From contig NZ_JAHLEM010000049.1 of assembly GCF_018883605.1 (NCBI RefSeq), positions 1 to 64,000 of the forward strand: a stretch of 64,000 nt of DNA, given 5' to 3'. The notes beneath the pieces were generated by a model. That model was not told the origin of the DNA. It saw nothing but the letters and a program-made list of their open reading frames with translations, and made no database searches. Every line of letters begins with the position of its first letter. Within the stretch, counting starts at the first letter, position 1. Source of the stretch: Streptomyces niphimycinicus (GTDB lineage Bacteria; Actinomycetota; Actinomycetes; Streptomycetales; Streptomycetaceae). Made by a program: the position numbers and the translations under genes. Positions 8,260 through 33,168 of this stretch are shown here, one piece after another.

Positions 8260-9042
8260 ATGCTGGGGCACATGAGGCAGGGGGAGCCCGGGGAGGGCGA
8301 GGGGTATTCGGGGCGGGGCGCGGGGCGTCGGTACATTGTCGCGTCCGTGGTGAGCGGCGTGGCTGTCGCGGTGGCCGTCACCCATGTGCTGGCACCGGAT
8401 CTGAAGATAGACAACGTCACCGTGGCGCTCCTGGTCGTGGCGGTCGTGCCCTGGCTGCGCGATCTGCTCAACAGCATCGAACTGCCGGGCGGGGTCCGCC
8501 TGGAGTTCAAGGAGGCGGTCGAGCAGCGCATCGAGGCCGCCGAGCGCATCGCCGACGCCGCCCTCGTCGGTAGCGGCGACGACGGACCGGAGACCGACGA
8601 CGCCACGGCGCTGGCGGACGTGCGCCGACTGGCCGCCGAATACCTCGGGGTCCGTAGGTCGATGGCCAGTGGATCCGCCCGTACGCAGCGCATGAGCGGC
8701 ATCTTCGCGCGGCTGGTGCGCGCCACCCAGCGGCTCGCGGACCCCGACCTCGACGGCTGGCTCACCTCCCCGGACGGCGGTCTGCGGCTGGCCGCCTACG
8801 CGCGGCTCTACGCGGTGCCGGTACCCGACGCGCTGACCCTGCTCGCCGACGCCGTCGTCAGGGAGCCGATCGCCTTCAACCAGTACTGGGGCATCCACGC
8901 GCTCGACAAGGTCGTTGACGCCGTCGGGGTCGAGGACGTACCGCCAGGTGTCGTCCGCCGGCTGGAGGACTGCCGACCGCGTGGCAGCGACCGGGTGGCC
9001 CTCCTGCGCCGTCTGATCACCAAGCTCCACGGCCTCCGATAG
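8260..9042 (+). CDS. Membrane protein of unknown function with helical cytoplasmic domain
   Basis: A 260-residue protein. A Gly/Glu-rich head is followed by two membrane segments (about residues 28-45, and 55-70 around VALLVVAVVPWLRDLL), then an ELPGGVRLEFKE linker and a long soluble helical domain. The motif of a hydrophobic helix followed by SIELPGGV+EFK recurs in small actinobacterial anchored effector-associated proteins, but no specific role follows. Either ATG 8260 or ATG 8272 may be the start; ribosome sites are weak. It diverges from the HAD gene with 65 bases between starts. Confidence 0.68.
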   Translation: MLGHMRQGEPGEGEGYSGRGAGRRYIVASVVSGVAVAVAVTHVLAPDLKIDNVTVALLVVAVVPWLRDLLNSIELPGGVRLEFKEAVEQRIEAAERIADAALVGSGDDGPETDDATALADVRRLAAEYLGVRRSMASGSARTQRMSGIFARLVRATQRLADPDLDGWLTSPDGGLRLAAYARLYAVPVPDALTLLADAVVREPIAFNQYWGIHALDKVVDAVGVEDVPPGVVRRLEDCRPRGSDRVALLRRLITKLHGLR

Positions 9043-9050
9043 GCCCCTCC

Positions 9051-9119
9051 GGGTACCCCCCCAAAAAACGCTTGATCTGAAGCAACTAATTTGTCAAGCA
9101 TTTTCAAGAGGGGTACCCC
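9051..9119. repeat. Inverted repeat GGGTACCCC / GGGGTACCC enclosing an AT-rich island
   Basis: Nine-base arms lie at 9051-9059 and 9110-9118; each also contains the palindrome GGTACC. Between them, 9063-9107 is strikingly AT-rich for this genome and holds a second inverted pair (GCTTGA at 9070 and TCAAGC at 9094) plus TTGACA on the minus strand. It could be a terminator for the preceding gene, an operator, or a nucleoid-protein target. Confidence 0.6.
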
Positions 9120-9276
9120 AACCCCCTCCGGATGCCCGGCACCTACCCCGGCCCCCGACCAGCGCAGCCGCCACCGGCGCCCACCCCACCGACCCGGCGC
9201 CCGGCAGCGGCGCCGCGCCCCCCACCTCCGCCGCCGCTGCTCAATTGCGCCGAAGGCGCGAAACGGCGCCGCACCC

Positions 9277-9392
9277 GATCACCCCGACCAGCCCGATCAC
9301 CCCGACCAGCCCGATCACCCCGACCAGCCCAACCCCGACCACCCCAACCCCGACCACCCCGACCACCCCGACCACCCCGATCACCCCGAGAA
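9277..9392. repeat. Tandem repeats, 18-base unit then about 9-base unit
   Basis: Three near-perfect copies of GATCACCCCGACCAGCCC are followed by shorter GACCACCCC-type units up to the GAGAACCCC end. No reading frame over it resembles a known protein. Confidence 0.85.
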
Positions 9393-9562
9393 CCCCCACA
9401 GGGTCCGTCGTACCAGCGGCTGACCCCCTCGCCCCCTCCGTACTGCGTTCTCAGTAGCCGGAAGTGTCGGCAGGCGCATGACGACACGACCGCCCCCTCC
9501 CAGCGAGCCTGGACGGACAGTCGGCACCAGATGTTCGGCACCAGATGTGGAGACCTCCTGCC

Positions 9563-11938
9563 GTGGCTACTTTCCTTTACCGAGTGGGCCGTCTGGCCTT
9601 CCGGCGACGCTGGTACGTCGCCCTGGTCTGGGCGGCCGTGCTGGCTGCCGTCGGGCTGGGCGCCCTCAAGGCTCCGGGAGCCTCCGACGACGGGTTCTCC
9701 ATGCCGGGCATCGAGGCCCAGAAGGCGTTCGACCTGATGGAACAGCGCTTCCCCGGAACCTCCGCCGACGGCGCGACCGCCCGGGTCGTCTTCGTCGCGC
9801 CGGGCGGTGAGAAGGTCACCGCCGCCGAGAACAAGCGGGCCGTCGAGAAGGCCGTGGCCGACCTGGCCGACGGCCCACAGGTCGCGAGTGCTGTCGACCC
9901 GTTCCAGGCGAAGGCCGTCAGCAAGGACGGCTCGACGGCGTACGCGTCCGTCACCTACAAGGTCGCCGCCAACGACCTCACCGACGCCGGCAAGACCCGT
10001 CTGGAGCGGGCCATCGACACGGCCCGGGACTCCGGGCTGACCGTCGAGGCGGGCGGAAGCGCGATGGACGACGGTGCCGGGCCCGGCGGCGTGGCCGAGG
10101 TGATCGGGGTCGCGATAGCCGCCGTCGTACTGCTGGTCACCTTCGGTTCGCTGGCCGCCGCCGGACTGCCGCTGCTGACCGCCCTCATCGGCGTCGGCGT
10201 GAGCATGGCCACCATCCTGACCCTGTCCCAGGCGCTGGGCCTGTCCACGACGACCGGCACCCTGGCGATGATGCTGGGCCTCGCGGTCGGCATCGACTAC
10301 GCCCTGTTCGTCGTCTCCCGCTACCGCGAGGAACGCGCCAAGGGCCGTGTGCCGCAGGAGGCGGTCGGTCTGGCGGTCGGCACGGCCGGTTCCGCGGTCG
10401 TGTTCGCCGGGCTCACCGTGGTCATCGCGCTGGCCGGACTCGCGGTGGTCGGCATCCCGATGCTCACCAAGATGGGCCTGGCCGCGGCGGGCGCGGTCGT
10501 CGTCGCCGTACTGATCGCGCTGACGCTGGTCCCGGCGTTCCTCGGGTTCTGGCCGAACGCCGTGCTCCGGCGGCGGGCCCGCAAGACCGGACGGATCGAG
10601 GAGGAGGGCACCCGGAACAACGGGGGCAGCCGCTGGGCGCGGTTCGTACTGCGGCGTCCGCTGCCCGTGCTGCTGCTCGGCGTGGTGGGCCTCGGAGCCC
10701 TCGCGGTGCCGATGACGGCCCTGCAACTCGGCATGCCCGGGGACGAGGCCAAGTCGACCTCCACCACCGAGCGCCGGGCCTACGACGCGCTCGCCGAGGC
10801 GTTCGGGCCGGGCTTCAACGGGCCGCTGACCGTCGTCGTGGACGCGAAGGGGGACGCCGGCGCGAAAGGGGACGCCGGCGCGAAAGGGGCCGACGGCGCG
10901 AAGGGTGCCGCCGACGCGAAGCGCGCCGCCGAAACCGTCGCGAAGCGGATCGGCGGCACCGAAGGCGTCATCTCCGTCTCCCCGCCCCGCTTCAACCAGG
11001 CCGGTGACACGGCCGTCTTCCAGGTCGTGCCGGCCACGTCGCCGACCGACGAGAAGACCAAGGACCTGGTCACGACCATTCGGGGCGAGCGGCCGGGAGT
11101 CGAGTCCGAGACCGGGGCGACCTTCGAGGTCACGGGCACCACCGCGCTGAACATCGACATCTCCGACAAGGTGCAGGCCGCGCTGATCCCTTATCTGGTC
11201 GTCGTCGTGGGCCTCGCGATCGTGCTCCTGCTGGTGGTCTTCCGGTCCCTGCTCGTCCCGCTGAAGGCGGCCCTCGGCTTCCTGCTGTCGGTGCTGGCCT
11301 CCCTCGGCGTGGTCGTCCTCGTCTTCCAGCAGGGCCATGGCGCCGGACTCCTGGGCGTGGAACAGACCGGCCCGATCATGAGCCTGATGCCGATCTTCCT
11401 GGTGGGCATCGTCTTCGGCCTGGCCATGGACTACGAGGTGTTCCTGGTCTCGCGGATGCGGGAGGCGTACGTCCATGGCGAGAGGCCCGGCGAGGCGATC
11501 ACCTCCGGCTTCCGGCACAGCGCCCGCGTGGTGGTGGCCGCCGCGCTGATCATGATCGCGGTGTTCGCCGGGTTCATCGGCGAGAGCGACTCCATGATCA
11601 AGATGATCGGGTTCGGACTCGCCTGCGCCGTCCTGTTCGACGCCTTCGTCGTACGGATGGCGATCGTGCCCGCCGTGCTCGCCCTGCTCGGCGACAGGGC
11701 CTGGTGGCTGCCGAAGTGGCTGGACCGGCTGCTGCCCAACGTCGACGTGGAGGGCGAGGCCCTCAGCCGCCGACAGGAAGCGGGCCAGGAAGCGGGCCGG
11801 GCAGCGGACCAGGGAACAGACCCGCAAGCCGACCCGGAGGCGGACCCGGAGGCCGACCCGGAAGCGGACCCGGAGGCGGACCCGGAGGCGGGCCCGCATC
11901 CGGCCGGGACGCCCGGCCGCGAAGTGGCCCGTACCTGA
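9563..11938 (+). CDS. MMPL/RND-family transporter
   Basis: A 791-residue membrane protein of the MMPL class, which exports lipids or drugs using the proton gradient (family knowledge). It has an N-terminal helix, a first extracellular loop, five helices with GLAVGIDYALFVVSRYREER, a second loop, and a second set of helices with GLAMDYEVFLVSRMREAY. Both halves keep the G...DY proton-relay signature. The second loop carries a collagen-like insert (GDAGAKGDAGAKG and relatives), and the C-terminal tail has repeated DPEA units. I use GTG 9563 because GGAG lies 10 bases upstream; ATG 9545 has no ribosome site. A kinase/regulator pair follows on the same strand. Confidence 0.88.
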   Translation: MATFLYRVGRLAFRRRWYVALVWAAVLAAVGLGALKAPGASDDGFSMPGIEAQKAFDLMEQRFPGTSADGATARVVFVAPGGEKVTAAENKRAVEKAVADLADGPQVASAVDPFQAKAVSKDGSTAYASVTYKVAANDLTDAGKTRLERAIDTARDSGLTVEAGGSAMDDGAGPGGVAEVIGVAIAAVVLLVTFGSLAAAGLPLLTALIGVGVSMATILTLSQALGLSTTTGTLAMMLGLAVGIDYALFVVSRYREERAKGRVPQEAVGLAVGTAGSAVVFAGLTVVIALAGLAVVGIPMLTKMGLAAAGAVVVAVLIALTLVPAFLGFWPNAVLRRRARKTGRIEEEGTRNNGGSRWARFVLRRPLPVLLLGVVGLGALAVPMTALQLGMPGDEAKSTSTTERRAYDALAEAFGPGFNGPLTVVVDAKGDAGAKGDAGAKGADGAKGAADAKRAAETVAKRIGGTEGVISVSPPRFNQAGDTAVFQVVPATSPTDEKTKDLVTTIRGERPGVESETGATFEVTGTTALNIDISDKVQAALIPYLVVVVGLAIVLLLVVFRSLLVPLKAALGFLLSVLASLGVVVLVFQQGHGAGLLGVEQTGPIMSLMPIFLVGIVFGLAMDYEVFLVSRMREAYVHGERPGEAITSGFRHSARVVVAAALIMIAVFAGFIGESDSMIKMIGFGLACAVLFDAFVVRMAIVPAVLALLGDRAWWLPKWLDRLLPNVDVEGEALSRRQEAGQEAGRAADQGTDPQADPEADPEADPEADPEADPEAGPHPAGTPGREVART

Positions 11939-12067
11939 TACGACCACCCTGCCCACCCCACCGACCGGGGCCACCCGTGGCGAACGCCATGGGCGGTCCC
12001 GGCAGCCGTTCGCGCGGGGAGCGGGGAAACGGTCACGATGGCCCGAGAGCAACGACCGGAGAGCCCG

Positions 12068-13396
12068 ATGAGCACCAGCCTTGAGCGTTACACGGACCGT
12101 TTCGAGCACTACGCCGACCGTTACCCCCGTGTCGTCGACGTGGCGCTCGTCCTGGCACTGATGGGCGGTGCGACCCTCGGCAGCAATCTCAGCCTGCCCG
12201 GCGCCAACCCACCCGACCAGGACAGGACCGCCGTCGTCCTCATGGGCGTGTCCTGCCTCGCCCTGCTGAAGTACCGCAGCCATCCGCGCACCGCCGTCGT
12301 CGTGACCGCGGTCTGCACCGTGATCGCGATCTCGCGGGGGTATCTGCTCACCCCCCTGCTGCTGGGCCCCGTCATGGCGGCGCTCTACTGGCTGGCCACG
12401 CTCAGCGACCGCAAGACCACCCGCGTCTTCGGCGTCACCACCATGGTGGCGCTGATGGCCGCGGCGGTGTTCGCCGACTCCATGGACGGCCTCCCCCTGC
12501 TGCTCAGGACGATCGGCCCCTTCTTCTGGCTGATGCTGCCGCTCGCCGCGGGCAACATGACCCGGCTGCGGCGCGTCTACCTGGCATCGGTGCAGGCCCG
12601 CGCCGAACACGCCGAGCGCACCCGGGAGGAGGAGGCCCGGCTGCGCGTCACCGAGGAGCGCATGCGCATCGCCCGCGAGCTGCACGACGTCGTGGCCCAC
12701 CACATGGCCCTGGCCAACGCGCAGGCCGGTACGGCCGCCCACCTCGCGCTCACCAGCCCCGAGCAGACGAAGAAGATCCTCACCGACCTGACCGGCACCA
12801 CCTCCTCCGCGCTGCGCGAGCTGAAGGCCACGCTGGGACTGCTGCGCCAGAACGACGACCCGGCCGCCGCGTCGCTGGAGCCGTCCCCCGGCCTCGCCCG
12901 GCTGCCCGAACTGGTCTCGGCGTGTGCGTCCGCGGGGCTCGCCGTCACGGTCACCACGACGGGGGAGCCCCGCCCGCTCTCCCCCGGGGTGGACCTGACC
13001 GCGTACCGGATCGTGCAGGAGGCGCTCACCAACGTCTCCAAGCACGCCGCCGCGGACGCCGCACACGTACGCATCGCCTACGCCGGATCCCGCCTGCTGA
13101 TCACGGTCAGCAACGACGGCCCGGACGCCATGGGCAGCCCGGACGCCACGGGCACCACCGCTGCCGCCGAGCCCGGGCCGAACCGGGGCTTCGGCGTCAT
13201 GGGCATGCGCGAACGCGCCCACACCATCGGCGGCGAACTCCGTGCGGGCCCCCGCCCGGAAGGCGGCTTCGAGGTCACCACCGCACTGCCGCTCCAGCCC
13301 TCGGCACCCGAGACGCCACCCCAGGCGGCGCCCGAAGCGGCCCCCCAGGCGGCCGCAGCGGCCACAGACGTTCCAGCAGCAGGAGAAGAGTCATGA
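12068..13396 (+). CDS. Sensor histidine kinase (HisKA_3/NarL-partner type)
   Basis: A 442-residue kinase. Four to six membrane segments occupy residues 25-160, then a coiled linker and the HisKA_3 dimerisation helix ERMRIARELHDVVAHH with the phospho-accepting His near 206. The N-box EALTNVSKH and the G-rich segment GFGVMGMRERA follow, so the ATPase domain is intact. The C-terminus is an Ala/Pro/Glu-rich tail. ATG 12068 has GGAGAG upstream. Its stop overlaps the response-regulator start by four bases, so they form a two-component pair. The pair lies 129 bases after the MMPL gene and may respond to envelope stress or exported compounds; the signal is unknown. Confidence 0.88.
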   Translation: MSTSLERYTDRFEHYADRYPRVVDVALVLALMGGATLGSNLSLPGANPPDQDRTAVVLMGVSCLALLKYRSHPRTAVVVTAVCTVIAISRGYLLTPLLLGPVMAALYWLATLSDRKTTRVFGVTTMVALMAAAVFADSMDGLPLLLRTIGPFFWLMLPLAAGNMTRLRRVYLASVQARAEHAERTREEEARLRVTEERMRIARELHDVVAHHMALANAQAGTAAHLALTSPEQTKKILTDLTGTTSSALRELKATLGLLRQNDDPAAASLEPSPGLARLPELVSACASAGLAVTVTTTGEPRPLSPGVDLTAYRIVQEALTNVSKHAAADAAHVRIAYAGSRLLITVSNDGPDAMGSPDATGTTAAAEPGPNRGFGVMGMRERAHTIGGELRAGPRPEGGFEVTTALPLQPSAPETPPQAAPEAAPQAAAAATDVPAAGEES

Positions 13397-25516: not shown

Positions 25517-25541
25517 AGGCCCGGGTCGGTGACCCGGGCCT
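25517..25541 (-). terminator. Strong stem-loop, likely terminator of the SARP-peptide unit
   Basis: An 11-base stem (AGGCCCGGGTC / GACCCGGGCCT) with a GGT loop. It sits just after the peptide stop and before the Nudix start on the same strand, so it would end transcription of the SARP-peptide unit. Confidence 0.75.
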
Positions 25542-25567: not shown

Positions 25568-25768
25568 CTAGTCCTCTGCGGAGGATATCCGGTGGGTGAT
25601 GGTTACGGCGGCGATGTCTTCGGTATGCCGCACCACGCTGTACTGACTTCGGTCATTCGCCGGGGTTGCCGGATTGCTGGATGTCCATACGTTGAACAGC
25701 GTTGGCATGCATGCCAACGCTACCAAGAGAAACGTCACTGCTCGAAGCCGACCGGTACGGATTTTCAA
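25568..25768 (-). CDS. Candidate small exported peptide gene downstream of the AfsR-like regulator
   Basis: A 66-residue frame on the same strand as the SARP gene and 153 bases downstream of it. A TTG start has GAGGACAGG upstream, and an in-frame TGA just before excludes longer forms. Residues 1-9 are basic (KIRTGRLR), residues 10-25 hydrophobic (AVTFLLVALACMPTLF), and the rest is polar (SSNPATPANDRSQYSVVRHTED...). This is the shape of a secreted pro-peptide. It recalls afsS (63 aa) downstream of afsR, and the phr genes after rap genes in Bacillus, but has no sequence likeness to either that I can see. It contains a 24-base perfect palindrome. It could instead be chance. Confidence 0.5.
   Translation of the reverse strand: MKIRTGRLRAVTFLLVALACMPTLFNVWTSSNPATPANDRSQYSVVRHTEDIAAVTITHRISSAED
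25698..25721. promoter_or_regulatory. 24-base perfect palindrome inside the peptide frame
   Basis: The half AGCGTTGGCATG is followed directly by its exact reverse complement; the next outward bases do not pair. It corresponds to residues about 16-24 of the small peptide. It could be an operator, a cruciform/hairpin controlling expression, or a coincidence of codons. Confidence 0.55.
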
Positions 25769-25921
25769 CGTGCACCTGTCCTCGCGGATTCTGCGGGGGC
25801 GTCAAGATCGCCGCCTGGCGAGGATATTAGACCTGTCGCCCCGCAAGATCAAACAGAAGAGCGGGGAGCAAGTGTTCGGTCGTCAGTCTAAGGGCTACCG
25901 GAGGTTAACTTACCGACCAGT

Positions 25922-28900
25922 TTAAAATTCTGTTTCTCCGTGATCGATTCTGGTCAGGAGTTTGTGCAATCTGTTCGCTTCTCGATCGTTCAGCCCGCGT
26001 AGCGTGGAAATCGCCCGCCGCAGCAGCTCCCTGGCTTCCATGGCGTCGCCTGCTGTCGCGCGTACCTCGGCGAGGATCGCTTGTGCCTTGGCTTCCTCGT
26101 CGCGGGCGTTGGCCCTGTTCGCGGCGGCTATGGCCGCTTCCAGGTGCTCGGCCGCGGCCTCGAGTCGGCCGCTGGCGAGTTCGCTTTGGCCCAGCCCGCG
26201 CAGGGCGCGCGTGACTTCCTGGGTTGTTCCGATGTCGCGGGCGATGTCCAGGGCCTTCAGGTGGTTCTCGATGGATGCGTCAACAGAGCCCTCCTTGAAG
26301 TACGCTTCCCCGAGACCGTTGTACGCTGTCGCCTGGCTTTTTCTGTCCCCGAGCATGCGAAATTCCGTCAATGCCCGATGGTGAAGCGCCAGTGCCCGGT
26401 CGATTTCGCCGGTTTCGGCAAGACTCGCGGCCAAATTGGTACGCACCATCGCCTGGGTGTAGGCATTTCCGGTGGACTCCGTCAGGGGAAGTAATTCCTC
26501 GAAAGCCTTCCGGGCCTGTGTGTAGTCGCCTCGGTGTGTGTAGAGGTCGCCTACGTTGTTGAGTGTTCTAATAACCCCGGCCTCATCCCCTGCGGACCGG
26601 AAACCGGATATCGCGTTCTGGAAGTGGTCCAGTGCGCGCTCCAGTTCCCCGAGGGCGAGAAGGGATATCGCGGTGTTGTTTCGAGCTCTGGCCTGATTCA
26701 GGACGTTGCCGGTCGCGATGCCGATCGCGAATGCTCTCTGGTGCATCACCACCGCGGTCTCGTTCTCACCTATATGCCAATGAATCACCCCAAGGCTCCG
26801 GTACGCCTCCCACTCCGCCTCCCGGTCCCCGATCGCCCGCGCGATCTCCAGTGCCCGCTCGCCCGCCTCCACGGCCCGCGCATAGCGGCCCGTGTTGGCG
26901 TGGTTGGAGCTGAGGCAGAGCAGGGCGTGGCACTGGGCCGGTTGGTCGCCGGTGTGTGACCAGTGGTCGGCGGCGTGCTGGAGGATGTCGATGGCGTCCT
27001 GCCAGTGGCACTCGGACTCCAGGAATCCCGCCAAGGCGTGGGCGAGCCGGGCCGCGGACGGCCGGGAGTCGTGGGTGCGGGCGTGGCGTTCGACGGCCAG
27101 GAGGTTGCCGTGCTCGGCGGCGAACCAGGCGCGCGCCTCATGGGCGTTGCGCATCCGGGAGAGGGCCAAAGGCTCCTGCGCGTTCTCCGGCGCGAGCCGG
27201 ATCCTCCGCGGGTACGCCACCCGGTCGGCCTCCTCCGCGGTCCGAAGGTAGGAGGCGATGAGCCGTTCCAGGGCCTGCTCGCGCTCCCGCGCGCTGTCTT
27301 CCGAAAGGGCGAGCATCCGGGCGTATTCGCCCAGCAGGTCATGAAACCGGTACCGCTCGGGCGCCGGTTCCCGGAGGAGGTGGCACTCCAGCAGGGATTC
27401 GATCAGCCGTTCGGTATCCTCGGCGGGAAGGTCGAGCAGCGCGGCGGCCGATTCGGTTGTGAAGTCGGGCCCCGGATGCAGCCCCAGGCGCCGGAACGTG
27501 GTGCGCTGGGTGGCGTCGAGGGTCCGGTAGGAAAGGGCGAAGGCGCGCAGAATCTCCTGATCCGCGTTGCGGATCTCGCCGAGGGGGCCGGGGCTGCGCG
27601 CCAGGCGCTCGCCCAGGGTGGTCAGGCTCCAAGAGGGGCGGGAGCGGAAGCGGTTGGCCACCAATTCGATGGCAAGCGGCAAATAGCCGCATAGGCGCAC
27701 GATACGGGCGGTCTCCGTGATGTCCTGGGTCCGTGCCGCACCCGCGAAACTCCGGAAAAGGGTGATCGCGTCATCGGTCGGCAGCACATCCAGGGCAAGC
27801 GGCACCGCATGCGGAAGCCCCGTCAGATGCCGACGGCTGGTGACGATGGTCAGGCATGGCGAATTGCCGGGCAGCAGCGGTGCGACCTGATCGGGCCCCG
27901 CCGCGTCGTCCAGCACGATCACGGCCCGGCGGTCGGCGATGGTGGTCCGCCACAGGGCGATCAACTCGTCCAGCCGGACGGGGATCGAATCGGCGGGCGC
28001 GCCGAACAGCCGCAGGAGCATGGCGAGGGCCGCGCCGGGACTCAGCGGTTCCTGGGAGGGGGAGTGGCCCCGCAGGTCCACGAAGACCTGACCGGCGGGG
28101 AATCGAGGAGCCAGCGTCCTGGCCGTGTCCACGGCGACCGCCGTCTTGCCGACCCCCGCCATGCCACTGACCGTTTCCAGCGTCAGCACGGCCCCTTCGC
28201 CCGGCTCCGTGTCGATGGACGCCATCAAGACGTCGAGCTCGGAGCGCCTGCCGATGAGCGGGGGTTGGTACGGCAGATTGCGCGGCGGAGGCTGCGCGGA
28301 GGAATGCCCTCCGGGAGAAGGCCCGGAGGACGCCGCGGGGGCGGCGGTCCGCAGGAGCCGGTCCACGGGTGTCCGGTCGAGGACGCCGCGGTGTATTCGG
28401 TCCAGTTCGTCCCCCGGCCGGGAGCCGAATTCCGACATCAGCAGTCGGCGGGCCCGCTGATGCACCCGTAAGGCGTCCGTGTACCGGCCGCTGCCGTAGT
28501 ACGCCAGCATCAACTGTCCTGCCAGCGTCTCGTCCTCCGGGTGGTGGCGCACCATCGCCGACAGCTCCCCGATCGAGTCGGCGAAACGGCCGAGCCGGTG
28601 CAGAGCCGCGATGCGGGAAATGGCCGCCTGGAGACGGCGCTCGGCGAGCGTGCTGCGTACGGTTTCGGCCCAGGTGCCGGGGAGCCCGGCGAGGGCCTCC
28701 CCCTGCCAGAGGTGTTCGGCGCGAGTGAGGAGGTCCACGACGCGTTCGTCCTCGCCGCTTGTCGCCACCGCTCCGGCCAGCTCGGTGAGGCGTTGGAAGC
28801 GGTTCAGGTCCACCGAGTCGGGGTCGGTGTTCAGCACGTAGGTGTGGGCCCGGCTGGTGATGTGCGGGGAGCCCGGCCCGGTGCCGGCGAGGCGGAGATG

Positions 28901-29113
28901 CTTACGCACCCGTGAGATGTACGTGTGGGTGTTCTCGCGGGCGCGTGGTGGAGCCTTACCGTCCCAGAGCCGCTCCAGGAGCGAGTTCATGGAGACGGGG
29001 CGGCCGACTTCCAGCGCCAGCGCGGCCAGCAGAGCCCGTTCCTTGTCCGAACCGAGCTTCAGTTGCCGGCCCTCCAGCCGAAGCTCCACCGGCCCGAGTA
29101 AATGGATGTCCAC
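25922..29113 (-). CDS. AfsR-like SARP regulator with NB-ARC and TPR domains
   Basis: A 1063-residue regulator. Residues 1-95 are an OmpR-like winged helix (MDIHLLGPVEL, TYISRVRKHL); 100-245 are the bacterial transcriptional activator domain; the P-loop GMAGVGKT is near 317-324, with LVIVLDDAAGPDQ-type Walker B and TSRRHL sensor; and residues from about 700 onward are helical TPR repeats (HWHIGENETAVVMHQRAF, ALALHHRALTEFRMLG). AfsR-type proteins activate secondary-metabolite genes (family knowledge). The TPR half has lower GC than neighbours. A short exported peptide frame lies downstream, and a STAND/TPR gene diverges from its promoter. Confidence 0.9.
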   Translation of the reverse strand: MDIHLLGPVELRLEGRQLKLGSDKERALLAALALEVGRPVSMNSLLERLWDGKAPPRARENTHTYISRVRKHLRLAGTGPGSPHITSRAHTYVLNTDPDSVDLNRFQRLTELAGAVATSGEDERVVDLLTRAEHLWQGEALAGLPGTWAETVRSTLAERRLQAAISRIAALHRLGRFADSIGELSAMVRHHPEDETLAGQLMLAYYGSGRYTDALRVHQRARRLLMSEFGSRPGDELDRIHRGVLDRTPVDRLLRTAAPAASSGPSPGGHSSAQPPPRNLPYQPPLIGRRSELDVLMASIDTEPGEGAVLTLETVSGMAGVGKTAVAVDTARTLAPRFPAGQVFVDLRGHSPSQEPLSPGAALAMLLRLFGAPADSIPVRLDELIALWRTTIADRRAVIVLDDAAGPDQVAPLLPGNSPCLTIVTSRRHLTGLPHAVPLALDVLPTDDAITLFRSFAGAARTQDITETARIVRLCGYLPLAIELVANRFRSRPSWSLTTLGERLARSPGPLGEIRNADQEILRAFALSYRTLDATQRTTFRRLGLHPGPDFTTESAAALLDLPAEDTERLIESLLECHLLREPAPERYRFHDLLGEYARMLALSEDSAREREQALERLIASYLRTAEEADRVAYPRRIRLAPENAQEPLALSRMRNAHEARAWFAAEHGNLLAVERHARTHDSRPSAARLAHALAGFLESECHWQDAIDILQHAADHWSHTGDQPAQCHALLCLSSNHANTGRYARAVEAGERALEIARAIGDREAEWEAYRSLGVIHWHIGENETAVVMHQRAFAIGIATGNVLNQARARNNTAISLLALGELERALDHFQNAISGFRSAGDEAGVIRTLNNVGDLYTHRGDYTQARKAFEELLPLTESTGNAYTQAMVRTNLAASLAETGEIDRALALHHRALTEFRMLGDRKSQATAYNGLGEAYFKEGSVDASIENHLKALDIARDIGTTQEVTRALRGLGQSELASGRLEAAAEHLEAAIAAANRANARDEEAKAQAILAEVRATAGDAMEARELLRRAISTLRGLNDREANRLHKLLTRIDHGETEF

Positions 29114-29304: not shown

Positions 29305-31428
29305 ATGGGCCAGGCACCCGGGGATGCCCACGAGAACCTGATCGGCGGCCAGGCCCGGATTCTCGGTCCCGCGGTACAGGCGCGCGACATTCACGGCGGC
29401 ATTCACGTGCACACGGGAGCGGCCACCGCGGTGCCGCCACCCCGGCAGCTCCTGCCGGTCCCCGCCCACTTCACCGGCCGTGGGGACGACCTGGCGGCGC
29501 TCGATGGACTGTTGACCGGCGGTGGGCACGGCGGCCCGGCCCGCTCGCTGATCGTGGTCAGCGGCCCGGCCGGGATCGGCAAGACGACCTTGGTGTGCGA
29601 CTGGCTGCACTCGCTCGCGCCCGAGTTCCCCGACGGACAGCTCTACGCCGACCTGCGGGGGCATTCCACCGAGGGCCCCGCGGGCCCTGGCGAGATTCTG
29701 AGCCAGTTCCTGCGGGCGCTCGGTGCCGGCTCGGTGCCCGCCGATATGGCCGAAAAGGCGTCGCTGTGGCGGTCTTGGACCGCTGATGCCCGGATCGCGG
29801 TAGTCCTGGACAACGCGTTCACCGCTGCCCAGGTCCGTCCGCTGCTGCACGCGGGCCCGGGTGGCCTCACCGTGGTCACCAGCCGCCGCCGGCTGACCGG
29901 CCTGCGCATGGACGGAGCGGCGATGCACCAACTCGAGGCGCTGGAACCGGCCGCCGGGGCCGAGCTGCTCAGCCGTGCGATCGGCGACGACCGCGTCGCG
30001 AACGAGCCGCAGGCGGCGCGCCAGGTCGTCGCGCTGTGTGCGGGATTGCCCCTTGCCGTCTGCCTTGCCTCCGCGCGCCTGGCGTCGAGGCCGCGACAGT
30101 CCGTGAAGACACTGGCCGATGCCCTGACCCGGGACACCGAGCGGCTGGCCGCGCTGCAAGTGGAAGGGGAGACCACGGTGAGCAACGCTCTGGACGCCTC
30201 GTACGCCGTACTCACCGAGGGCGCCGCCCTCCTCTACCGCAGGCTCGGCCCACTGCCCTTGCGGACCTTCGACGCGAGAAGCGCCGCCGCGGCCTGCGCC
30301 GCCTCCCTCGCGTGGGCGGAGTCCCGGCTGGACGAGCTCGTCGAGGCCAACCTGATGGAGGACATCGGCCCGGGCATCTGCCGCCACCACGACCTGGTGC
30401 GCGTCCACGCCCACGGCCGGGCGATCGCGGAGGAGAGCGCCACGACGCGTGCGGAGGCACTGCGGCGGGTCTGCGACTGGTATCTGGAGACGGCCACCGA
30501 AGCGGAGAAGCTGATCACACCCGCGCAGTTCACCCTCGACAGGGACGTGGCCCACCCCTCCGGGCTCCCCATCCCCTTCACCGACGATCCGGGCGCGCTC
30601 GCCTGGCTGGATGCCCACCGGATGAACCTCATGGCGGTGATACGCGCCGCCGCGGCAGCCGAGTGGCATGCGATGACCTGGCAGCTCGTGGACGCCATGT
30701 GGCCGGTCTTCCTTCGGCTGCGCTACTACGATCTGTGGATCGAGGCTCATGAGATCGGGCTGGCAGCGGCCCGAAGAGACGGTAACGCCGAGGCCGAGCG
30801 CCAGATGCTCAACTCCGGCGCCATCGGCCTCGGCGCCGCCGGCCGTGTCGACGACGCGGCCGAGTGGTACGAGGAGTCCCGCCGGGCGGCGCGCGAGGCG
30901 GGCGATGTACGGGACGAGGGACAGGCGTTGCTGGGCCTCGGCGGCTGCCACCGCGAGGCCGGGCGGATGGTGGCCGCCGTGGACCATCTCCACCAGGCCA
31001 TCACCCTGTGGGAGGCGTGCGGCTACCCACGCGGTGTGGCCCTGGCCGGGATCGTCCTCGGGGAGATCGCACTCGCCCAGGACGACACCGGCCGGGCCGT
31101 CGAGTACTTCACGCACGCGCGCGCCGGTCTGCTGGCCGTCGACGACCCCCATGACGCGGCGCGCGCCCTGGTCTTTTCGGGGCGTGCCCGTGCGCGTGCC
31201 GGTGAACACGAGGCGGGTGTGACGGCGATGGAAGAGGCCCTCGCGGTGTTCACCTCGTCCGGGGCCGCGCACTGGCAGGCCCGTACCCTCGAGATGCTCG
31301 GAGACAGCGCCCGGGAACGCGGCGAGGAGACGGCGGCACGGGACTTCCGCGCCCGGGCGCTTGCGCTGTTCGAGGTCACCAGCCCCGCCGACGCGCGTCG
31401 GCTCAGGGAATCGCCGAGCGGTAGGTGA
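29305..31428 (+). CDS. STAND/NB-ARC-TPR protein lacking a DNA-binding domain
   Basis: A 707-residue protein. An N-terminal segment with VQARDIHGGIHVHTG, common in Streptomyces STAND proteins, precedes a P-loop GPAGIGKT near 87-94, Walker B IAVVLDNAF and TSRRRLTGL sensor, and C-terminal TPR helices from about residue 520. No HTH is seen, so it is likely a signalling or effector-recruiting NTPase rather than a direct DNA binder. Its start is 191 bases from the divergent AfsR-like gene. Its last 26 bases overlap the opposite-strand gene that follows. Confidence 0.83.
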   Translation: MGQAPGDAHENLIGGQARILGPAVQARDIHGGIHVHTGAATAVPPPRQLLPVPAHFTGRGDDLAALDGLLTGGGHGGPARSLIVVSGPAGIGKTTLVCDWLHSLAPEFPDGQLYADLRGHSTEGPAGPGEILSQFLRALGAGSVPADMAEKASLWRSWTADARIAVVLDNAFTAAQVRPLLHAGPGGLTVVTSRRRLTGLRMDGAAMHQLEALEPAAGAELLSRAIGDDRVANEPQAARQVVALCAGLPLAVCLASARLASRPRQSVKTLADALTRDTERLAALQVEGETTVSNALDASYAVLTEGAALLYRRLGPLPLRTFDARSAAAACAASLAWAESRLDELVEANLMEDIGPGICRHHDLVRVHAHGRAIAEESATTRAEALRRVCDWYLETATEAEKLITPAQFTLDRDVAHPSGLPIPFTDDPGALAWLDAHRMNLMAVIRAAAAAEWHAMTWQLVDAMWPVFLRLRYYDLWIEAHEIGLAAARRDGNAEAERQMLNSGAIGLGAAGRVDDAAEWYEESRRAAREAGDVRDEGQALLGLGGCHREAGRMVAAVDHLHQAITLWEACGYPRGVALAGIVLGEIALAQDDTGRAVEYFTHARAGLLAVDDPHDAARALVFSGRARARAGEHEAGVTAMEEALAVFTSSGAAHWQARTLEMLGDSARERGEETAARDFRARALALFEVTSPADARRLRESPSGR

Positions 31429-31945
31429 TCCGCGGGCGGGCCGCCAACATTCCGCTCAGCGGGAGCCCCGCCACCAGCCAGGCGTGCAGGCAGGACACGA
31501 AGAGCCAGTGCTCCGGTGGTACTCGGCAGGGCAGGGCCACCACGTCCGGGTCGGTACCGCCGCGCGCCACCCAGCCGCCACCGGTCAGCGGTACGGCGGC
31601 CAGGCGGCACCCCGGTCCGGCGGGTCCGACCTCCGCCAGCCACCGCACCGCCTCGGCGACCGACCGCGGGCGGCTGCCACGCAGCACATCGGCGCAGTCC
31701 AGCCCGCGTGCGTCGGCGCAGGCATCGGCGTCCACCGTCAGGTGCTCGTCGAGGACGGTCGCCCGGCGGGTGCCCGCGAGACCGGTACGGGCCACGCGGG
31801 TGCCCGCGAGACCGGTACGGGCCAGCAGGACGCCTCCGCCCGCCGCCCGGCCCGTCCACAGGCATACGGACGGCGTCGGCGCTGGATCCGGTGGAGTCTC
31901 CTCCCACCACTCCACGGTGACGAAACACCCGGCCGGACGGCTCAT
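31403..31945 (-). CDS. Hypothetical protein with an in-frame duplicated segment
   Basis: A 180-residue protein starting MSRPAGCFVTVEWWEETPP. The middle carries a duplicated decapeptide ARTGLAGTR, produced by a 30-base DNA repeat. C-terminal segments are LLFVSCLHAWLVAGL-like and hydrophobic, possibly one membrane helix. It overlaps the upstream glycosyltransferase-like gene by four bases (ATGA), so they are coupled, and it overlaps the opposite STAND gene by 26 bases. Function unknown. Confidence 0.68.
   Translation of the reverse strand: MSRPAGCFVTVEWWEETPPDPAPTPSVCLWTGRAAGGGVLLARTGLAGTRVARTGLAGTRRATVLDEHLTVDADACADARGLDCADVLRGSRPRSVAEAVRWLAEVGPAGPGCRLAAVPLTGGGWVARGGTDPDVVALPCRVPPEHWLFVSCLHAWLVAGLPLSGMLAARPRITYRSAIP
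31767..31824 (-). repeat. 30-base in-frame direct duplication
   Basis: Two copies of a 28-base block including TGCCCGCGAGACCGGTACGG, 30 bases apart (31767-31794 and 31797-31824). It encodes the duplicated ARTGLAGTR segment of the overlapping gene. Confidence 0.85.
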
Positions 31946-33168
31946 GCCGATGCCTCCCCACGATCGGAGGACCACGTTCGCAGTGTCGGCGGCTCCGGGA
32001 GCGGTATCACCCGCGGTTCATGGGCGGGCTGGCCCAATCCCATCAGCCGGTACATCAGCCGCCGCATATTGCGATGGAAGCGGCCGGGTTCGGAGGTGAT
32101 GCGCCCGGCGATGGCGGCGTACTCCTCCGGGCGGTATTCGGCGGCGGCGTAGTCGAGTTGCTCGGGGAGCGGATGAGCCGGGGACAGCGCCGGCGCGGTG
32201 ACGGCGAGCGTGGCGGCCGGAGAGCCCGGGTTGATTTCCGGCTCCGGGGACCCGGTCAGAAGGATCGGCACCCCGGTGAGCGTTCCGTAGAGGGTGACCG
32301 AGCCATGGTCGCCGACGATGTAGTCGGCGGCGATCAGGACGCTGCGCCAGTCGGCCTCCGGCGGCACCACACTGACCCCCAGCCGACCGCACCACGCCAA
32401 CCACGTCCTGACCTGCCACGGCCCATGGCCCGACCACACGTTGGGGTGGACAAGGATGGCCGTACGGAACCGTCCGGAGGGAAGCTCCCCGACCATGCGG
32501 GGCAGCAACATCTCGAAACGGCCGAAGAACGAGTTCGGACCCCAGGTGGAGACGGCGAGCACCAGCCGCTCCCCGTCCGCGAGACCCAGCGCACGGCGAT
32601 ACGCGGTGCGCCGCGGCAGGCTCGCGGTGATCCGGTCGTGCGCGGGGTCGCCGACCACATGCGCCAGCTCAAGCGCCTCGGGGCAATGACGGCCCAGCTC
32701 TCGCAGGTCGGCGTGGTGCGGTACGACCACGGCGGCCGGCGGCTTGCCGCCGGGCATGAGGTCCCGCCTGCGGAGCCCCGCCACGCCCGGGTCCGACATC
32801 CCGGGCAGGCGTTTGAGGTAGTTGGCGCCGTGCGGCATCGTGATCAGGGGCGCCTGCACCTGCTCCACCCCACGCGGGCCTGCCGCCACCGCGAGGTCGA
32901 ACGTCATGCGGGTGGCCTCTGCCCAGGGAAGTACGGGGCTTCCGAGCTGTTGGAGGAAACGCGGTACTTCGTCCCCGAAGACATGGGGTGGCGTGGTGAA
33001 CACCACCTGGAGCCGGAAGTCGGCCTCCAGCAGCGACAGGACATCGAGAAGTCGCTTGGCGTAGGTGACGGTGTGGACGACGGCCAGTACCTTCTTGCGT
33101 TCCACCAGTGTGAGCCACTGGCGTGGCTCGTCCGACGAAGACTCTGCGATCGTGCTGAACGCCGACAT
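31942..33168 (-). CDS. Glycosyltransferase-fold protein (CDP-glycerol/teichoic-type-like), unknown substrate
   Basis: A 408-residue protein. It starts at ATG 33168 with a GGGGGG purine run upstream. The two-domain layout and the C-terminal motif DYIVGDHGSVTLYGTLTGVPILL resemble GT-B proteins of the CDP-glycerol glycerophosphotransferase group; some Streptomyces relatives carry misleading annotations. No signal peptide is seen, so it acts in the cytosol. It is coupled to the downstream 180-residue gene. Its divergent promoter region is shared with a lipoprotein gene. Transferred group unknown. Confidence 0.65.
   Translation of the reverse strand: MSAFSTIAESSSDEPRQWLTLVERKKVLAVVHTVTYAKRLLDVLSLLEADFRLQVVFTTPPHVFGDEVPRFLQQLGSPVLPWAEATRMTFDLAVAAGPRGVEQVQAPLITMPHGANYLKRLPGMSDPGVAGLRRRDLMPGGKPPAAVVVPHHADLRELGRHCPEALELAHVVGDPAHDRITASLPRRTAYRRALGLADGERLVLAVSTWGPNSFFGRFEMLLPRMVGELPSGRFRTAILVHPNVWSGHGPWQVRTWLAWCGRLGVSVVPPEADWRSVLIAADYIVGDHGSVTLYGTLTGVPILLTGSPEPEINPGSPAATLAVTAPALSPAHPLPEQLDYAAAEYRPEEYAAIAGRITSEPGRFHRNMRRLMYRLMGLGQPAHEPRVIPLPEPPTLRTWSSDRGEASA

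Follow-up and report, generated by a model that had tools for sequence, protein, structure and literature searches.

A small gene with a Cys-centred core behind a SARP-NB-ARC-TPR regulator in Streptomyces, a candidate precursor of a peptide pheromone

The 64,000-nucleotide stretch of Streptomyces niphimycinicus DNA analysed here (contig NZ_JAHLEM010000049.1, positions 1 to 64,000; "the window") carries a gene for a large regulator and, 153 nt behind it on the same strand, a small open reading frame (ORF) that may well encode the precursor of a short peptide signal. The regulator (25922-29113, minus strand) starts with GTG and has 1063 residues. In Pfam it matches Trans_reg_C, BTAD, NB-ARC and TPR, in that order and above cut-off, the first two forming the SARP part; it is the proposed receptor. 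The small ORF (25568-25768, minus strand) encodes 66 residues and has no Pfam, NCBIfam or PADLOC match. Its exact start is only putative because it begins with TTG behind only a weak ribosome-binding site. The initial annotation had described this pair of ORFs and had given the shorter one a basic start, a hydrophobic core and a polar tail. Both ORFs exist as described, and residue counts and the Kyte-Doolittle scale bear out the three-part layout. Four of the first nine residues are Arg or Lys, the best 12-residue Kyte-Doolittle mean is 2.64, from residue 10, and the polar tail follows.

The part of the small ORF that matters most below is a Cys-Met-Pro-Thr core, encoded at 25700-25711 (minus strand) and kept in four related loci (L031, L032, L033 and L148). 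A perfect 24-bp palindrome, AGCGTTGGCATGCATGCCAACGCT, spans the core codons at 25698-25721. It is imperfect in L031 and L033, which retain CMPT, and is thus probably a chance structure built on the Cys-Met-Pro codons. Between the regulator and the small ORF lies a promoter-like site, TTGATC-17-TAATAT (25824-25852, minus strand), which has counterparts in L031 and L033 and would be in keeping with separate expression of the 66-residue ORF. Between regulator stop and core the pattern occurs in 13 of 62 loci, against 1.7 in shuffles (at most 6), a count to be read with the fact that the pattern was chosen after the copies in the window, L031 and L033 had been seen. On the 3' side of the ORF is a hairpin (25518-25540, minus strand), which the initial annotation had called a strong terminator. 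Folding confirmed a perfect 10-bp GC stem (-27.8 kcal/mol for a 51-nt stretch, z-score -4.2), but the stem has no T-run and a terminator scan did not list it, so that it is better called a probable terminator without a T-run.

Sequence search with the 66-residue product found little. Against 150 Streptomyces genomes only its own copy was significant, the other listed matches having E >= 0.007; in 21 genomes searched at E <= 0.1 it matched nothing but itself. Among 30 loci gathered by such a search, only the own locus adjoined the regulator. Therefore orthologues of the regulator were collected instead and the DNA behind them was read. On the sequence search alone the small ORF would have passed for unconserved; synteny reversed that outcome. 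Similarity searches miss the family because little more than four residues are conserved.

A profile of the TPR region placed the regulator subfamily in 41 of 315 Streptomyces genomes, the own genome included. At the level of the order it was present in 31 of 293 genomes, including one that belongs to another genus. Apart from the own genome, a class-wide search with the single sequence (197 genomes, E <= 1e-55) returned a single other, which is of the same genus, and a plasmid collection gave one regulator match, in a stretch that has no annotation there. The resulting 68 loci comprise the window, 45 from a first set and 22 new ones from a second search, in which 22 of 23 newly found genomes yielded a locus (G686 did not). 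Rows for L039 and L040 were omitted from A1, and that for L120, which has an internal stop in the regulator frame, from A2.

Behind the regulator, a small ORF with a Cys core could be assigned in 62 of the 68 loci, partly by eye. Survival of the ORF alongside the regulator in relatives was the test that the initial annotation had set itself, and the ORF passes it. In L031 (S. hygroscopicus NBRC 13472), whose regulator is 86% identical, the ORF stands in the same place, likewise encodes 66 residues and is 65% identical over 55 of them. In L033 (S. endocoffeicus) it retains RLRAVTF...ACMPTL and stops after 32 residues. The precursor in L032 (S. samsunensis) is of a different kind: it contains an AxA-type site, and its core is duplicated, as VSMPTKASD and VCMPTKVSD. 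The repeat (near 8313-8501 of that locus) has a period of 11 residues, VSMPTKASDEA and VCMPTKVSDRQ, and its first copy has Ser for Cys. Behind regulators that are only 42-55% identical the small ORFs carry CIMI, CIII, CIPS, CIPT and similar cores. In L143 a transposase-like ORF, judged by eye, occupies the expected peptide position, and the sister locus L133 has a CITY peptide. In L120, from the same genome as L039, the regulator frame has an internal TGA and the downstream ICIPT peptide is intact.

The core consensus is C-[I/M/L]-x-x, with Thr as second residue in a single case. Among the 62 loci the second residue is Ile in 41, Met in 17, Leu in three and Thr in one, and the commonest cores are CIAY (10), CIPS (7), CIPT (6), CMPT (5), CMPS (5) and CIMI (4). 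In 11 of the 62 precursors the core is the extreme C-terminus, a placement that resembles a CaaX box. The family is fast-evolving, and is known by its place behind this regulator subfamily and by a core in or behind a hydrophobic segment.

The pairing was measured with the motif C[IML][PIMTSA][TSIYH], written from the residues of the discovery loci and sought in ORFs of at least 20 residues within 450 nt behind the regulator. Cores found by eye or by a broader pattern are excluded from these counts. Of the 23 discovery loci, 22 have the motif. So do 13 of 22 loci in the intermediate set, which had already been viewed when the motif was composed, and 13 of 22 in the last set, which had not. With a hydrophobic stretch required as well (the strict rule) the figures are 20/23, 11/22 and 11/22; one strict match of the last set, CLAH in L162, probably lies in the wrong ORF, FTCIAC in another frame being the likelier core. 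Control windows from the same loci gave the motif in 37 of 2861 cases and the motif with a hydrophobic stretch in one of 2861. In the reverse complements of the same regions the counts were 2/45 and 0/45. Behind other SARP-NB-ARC-TPR regulators, obtained by searching with a paralogue from the own genome (matches in 41 of 101 genomes, 30 loci used), they were 1/30 and 0/30. Pooled over the two later sets, the 26 matches in 44 loci have a binomial tail of 7e-38 against the control windows, which overstates the strength because related loci are not independent. The small ORF after the regulator is confirmed as real and as more than chance, and the pairing of the core-bearing ORF with the regulator is specific to this subfamily.

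Selection on the precursor is concentrated in the core. In 14 pairs of related loci, aligned on the Cys, the proportion of nonsynonymous differences (pN) over the four core codons is 0.048 and that of synonymous differences (pS) 0.70, a ratio of 0.07; the core amino acids are kept while its synonymous sites vary. In the same pairs pN/pS is 0.83 over the 16 codons before the core and 0.84 over the 14 after it. Compared with L031, the window copy of the ORF shows pN 0.172 and pS 0.185 over the aligned part, and the six codons LACMPT are free of amino-acid changes. The polar tail is thus hardly constrained. The initial annotation had looked to this C-terminal tail for the signal. The comparison does not bear that idea out, since the tail drifts almost freely, is short in L033 and is absent from the 11 precursors that end in their core. 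As judged from these substitution patterns, the signal is best read as the core.

Core type was compared with the phylogeny of the receptor, using a tree of 45 TPR regions in which 28 of 42 inner branches are well supported. The test used 41 labelled rows, L125, L130, L143 and L145 having no core label. The class of the fourth core residue requires 4 changes on the tree, and 500 shuffles required at least 12. Ser versus Thr within C-x-P-[S/T] requires a single change over 18 rows (shuffles at least 3), and the third core residue 10 changes (shuffles at least 15). The second residue tracks the tree least, with 9 changes, a figure reached by one of the 500 shuffles. Thus core type follows receptor clades.

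The genes around the pair form a cassette with the order gene A, gene B, a second NB-ARC-TPR protein (TPR2), the SARP gene and, last, the peptide. TPR2 (29305-31428, plus strand) has no DNA-binding domain by Pfam and lies divergent from the SARP gene. It was found by tblastn in 42 of 45 loci, or 43 when L140, whose match had been filtered out of the first count, is added. Gene B (31403-31945, minus strand, ends approximate) encodes a small protein; tblastn matched it in 21 of 45 loci at E <= 1e-4, and ORFs occur at the same place. Gene A (31942-33168, minus strand) is matched in 39 of 45 loci by relatives 50-93% identical to the window copy. Five of the six loci without it end, with the contig or the fetched stretch, before its place, and only L144 truly lacks it, over 17 kb. 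The gene A product is predicted to have a GT-B fold. Its structure model has a predicted local distance difference test score (pLDDT) of 82.3, and in a fold search MshA-type glycosyltransferases came first by E-value (template modelling score, TM, about 0.45) and TagF was best by TM, up to 0.61. Pfam assigned it no family, and only two of 36 members weakly matched Glyphos_transf (best E 0.3). Plasmid records of Streptomyces and Embleya also contain genes related to gene A. No neighbour behind the peptide is more widespread than a Nudix gene, which occurs in four loci. A defence system was considered and set aside, as PADLOC matched the two TPR proteins to a generic TPR model only and had no match for gene A or the small ORF.

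Two loci separate parts of the cassette. L144 keeps the SARP and the peptide and has neither gene A nor TPR2 in its 17 kb. L153, on a plasmid, lacks this SARP, having instead a shorter BTAD regulator at a distance of 7 kb, and shows no core peptide over 19 kb. At 9040-12829 of that record (NZ_CP045548.1) a gene A relative forms part of a longer gene, beside a convergent TPR2-like NB-ARC-TPR gene. L153 is perhaps a related cassette with another output. With one case each way, L144 and L153 favour the SARP as the partner of the peptide.

The TPR domain of the regulator (residues 641-1063) was modelled with a pLDDT of 94.8. It aligns with Rap-pheromone complexes (8rsv, Z 29.1, root-mean-square deviation, rmsd, 5.0 over 350 residues; 4i9c, Z 28.2, rmsd 4.9 over 351) and with NprR (5dbk, Z 27.0, rmsd 5.2 over 350). 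A TPR fold of this kind can bind peptides, which alone proves nothing.

Together these observations make it reasonably probable that the 66-residue ORF is the precursor of a short Cys-centred peptide pheromone sensed by the SARP-type STAND regulator, which upholds the proposal of the initial annotation in part. The precursor would be exported and then trimmed to a short peptide around the core, approximately ACMPT in the window. An oligopeptide permease such as BldK could bring the peptide back into the cell, where it might bind in the groove of the TPR domain. Binding would free the ATP-dependent STAND switch and let the SARP domain activate the cassette, perhaps along with other genes. Each of the core clades (CxPT, CxPS, CIMI/CIII and CxxY/F) would then be a signal type of its own.

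Several results weigh against the pheromone reading. Export, as the initial annotation proposed it, looks likely from the sequences of most precursors, but no export stretch is convincing in L118 and L126, where the best 12-residue means are 0.93 and 0.90. A clear core is absent from six of the 68 loci (L125, L130, L143, L145, L166 and L181), including L181, the sole locus from another genus, and some assigned cores are loose or found by eye: CTPS (L172), CMVD (L141), CIPC (L182) and CLYA (L183, about 570 nt behind the regulator). Part of the low core pN follows from the use of a motif to recognise the cores; the nearly free drift of the flanks does not. Agreement between core type and receptor clade is explained as well by simple linkage, the joint inheritance of neighbouring genes, as by direct fit. 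The Rap/Phr-like receptor of the initial annotation is upheld in so far as the model aligns with Rap and NprR, but MalT domain III (1hz4, Z 31.1, rmsd 3.9 over 356) and APPBP2 (8jal, Z 32.1, rmsd 3.5 over 417) align too, Foldseek ranks LGN first, and the fold is common to eukaryotic TPR proteins. Finally, no gene for a permease or peptidase was noticed in the conserved part of the cassette.

This last point fits a small peptide of the membrane or cell surface with a purely local action on the regulator, as an anchor, an inhibitor or a sensor of membrane state, which never becomes a diffusible signal. Such a peptide would suit the CIAY clade, whose products have 28-38 residues and a single hydrophobic segment, with the Cys within it or at its end. 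In other clades the core stands behind an AxA-type site, 10-30 residues past the hydrophobic stretch, and it can be the very C-terminus (L111, L112, L113). The flanks, moreover, are nearly unconstrained, unlike those of a membrane protein that must pack. A purely local peptide is therefore considered unlikely.

The constancy of TPR2 and of the GT-B-fold gene A, which are as constant in the cassette as the peptide, raises another arrangement, in which the peptide partners TPR2 or is a substrate of genes A and B that yields a modified peptide product, the SARP only regulating the cassette. L144 retains SARP and peptide in the absence of both genes, and in L153 a gene A relative and a TPR2-like protein occur with no core peptide. 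These two loci make the arrangement quite improbable. Small hydrophobic products beside a SARP, a family that activates antibiotic genes, could also be antimicrobial or toxic peptides switched on by the regulator. With only four residues constrained, they are a better fit to a ligand than to a membrane-active peptide, and the ORF has no conserved neighbour for immunity, transport or modification; such a function has a very small probability. That the conserved thing is a DNA or RNA element (an operator or attenuator), with the ORF incidental, is hardly credible. The palindrome over the core codons and the hairpin behind the ORF speak for it, but the palindrome is imperfect in L031 and L033 despite their CMPT, synonymous core sites vary while the amino acids do not, and there is no Rfam match.

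The pheromone reading bears on what the TPR domains of large SARPs sense. The AfsR structure paper treats the TPR domain as a tentative sensor domain (PMC10936776), and a SARP review considers signalling compounds to be probably needed and asks for them (PMC10972967). Streptomyces signalling is described mainly in terms of small molecules made by enzymes, and TPR-pheromone pairs come from Bacillota, in the account of PMC10075063. If the reading is true, large SARPs gain a natural ligand, about one in eight sampled Streptomyces genomes (41/315) carries a peptide circuit amenable to testing with synthetic peptides, and such a circuit might switch on silent genes. Large SARPs and the TPR-pheromone pairs of Bacillota are already known. 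No earlier description of a Cys-core peptide family behind SARP-type STAND regulators was found in open-licence PMC papers, preprints not included, and an earlier report is possible.

The regulator belongs with the large, AfsR-type SARPs, whose order of Trans_reg_C, BTAD, NB-ARC and TPR it shares. In AfsR the nucleotide-binding oligomerization domain (NOD) and the TPR domain are reported to inhibit the SARP domain, with activity restored by preincubation with ATP (PMC10936776). The regulator is not an AfsR orthologue, scoring 510.6 bits against an equivalog cut-off of 1430 (NF053617). AfsS, the small protein associated with AfsR, is a cytosolic regulator. NosP, the nosiheptide SARP, is reported to respond to peptidyl ligands from a precursor peptide (PMC10972967), and is alike as a peptide-responsive SARP; its ligand derives from the thiopeptide precursor, whereas here a separate family of small ORFs is tied to the regulator gene. 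In S. coelicolor, BldK and the Bld261 oligopeptide provide a precedent for an imported oligopeptide signal in Streptomyces (PMC11303876). No gene for the Bld261 signal is linked to the present family, and identity is not claimed. The TPR proteins of the FxSxx-COOH and HaaA systems for ribosomally synthesized and post-translationally modified peptides share the NB-ARC-TPR region. Scores below the cut-offs (HaaT 440.6 against 1125 bits, FxSxx_TPR 111.2 against 300 bits) exclude membership, and FxSxx-COOH and HaaA precursors are not known to have a C-I-x-x-like core. A lipoprotein signal peptide was also rejected: the lipobox is [LVI][ASTVI][GAS]C, and by eye no proper one is present, the window having VALAC and the CIAY clade LTC.

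The RRNPP systems of Bacillota (Rap-Phr, NprR-NprX) have a similar layout, a small precursor gene beside the gene for a TPR protein, and here too a precursor gene with an export-type hydrophobic segment adjoins the receptor gene. RRNPP receptors have a helix-turn-helix (HTH) or phosphatase-type N-terminal domain. In the present regulator Trans_reg_C, BTAD and NB-ARC precede the TPRs, a SARP-NB-ARC-TPR protein in place of HTH-TPR or phosphatase-TPR, and for this reason the system is not filed as an RRNPP member. It differs also in the Cys of its core and in its distribution, which in this analysis was limited to Streptomyces and one other genus of the family. On balance, and by a small margin over even chances, it would constitute an undescribed class of actinomycete pheromones with ribosomal precursors, built on a Cys-centred tetrapeptide (CMPT, CIPS, CIMI, CIAY and kin) with clade-specific signals, possibly with a modified Cys, and read by a STAND-type SARP.

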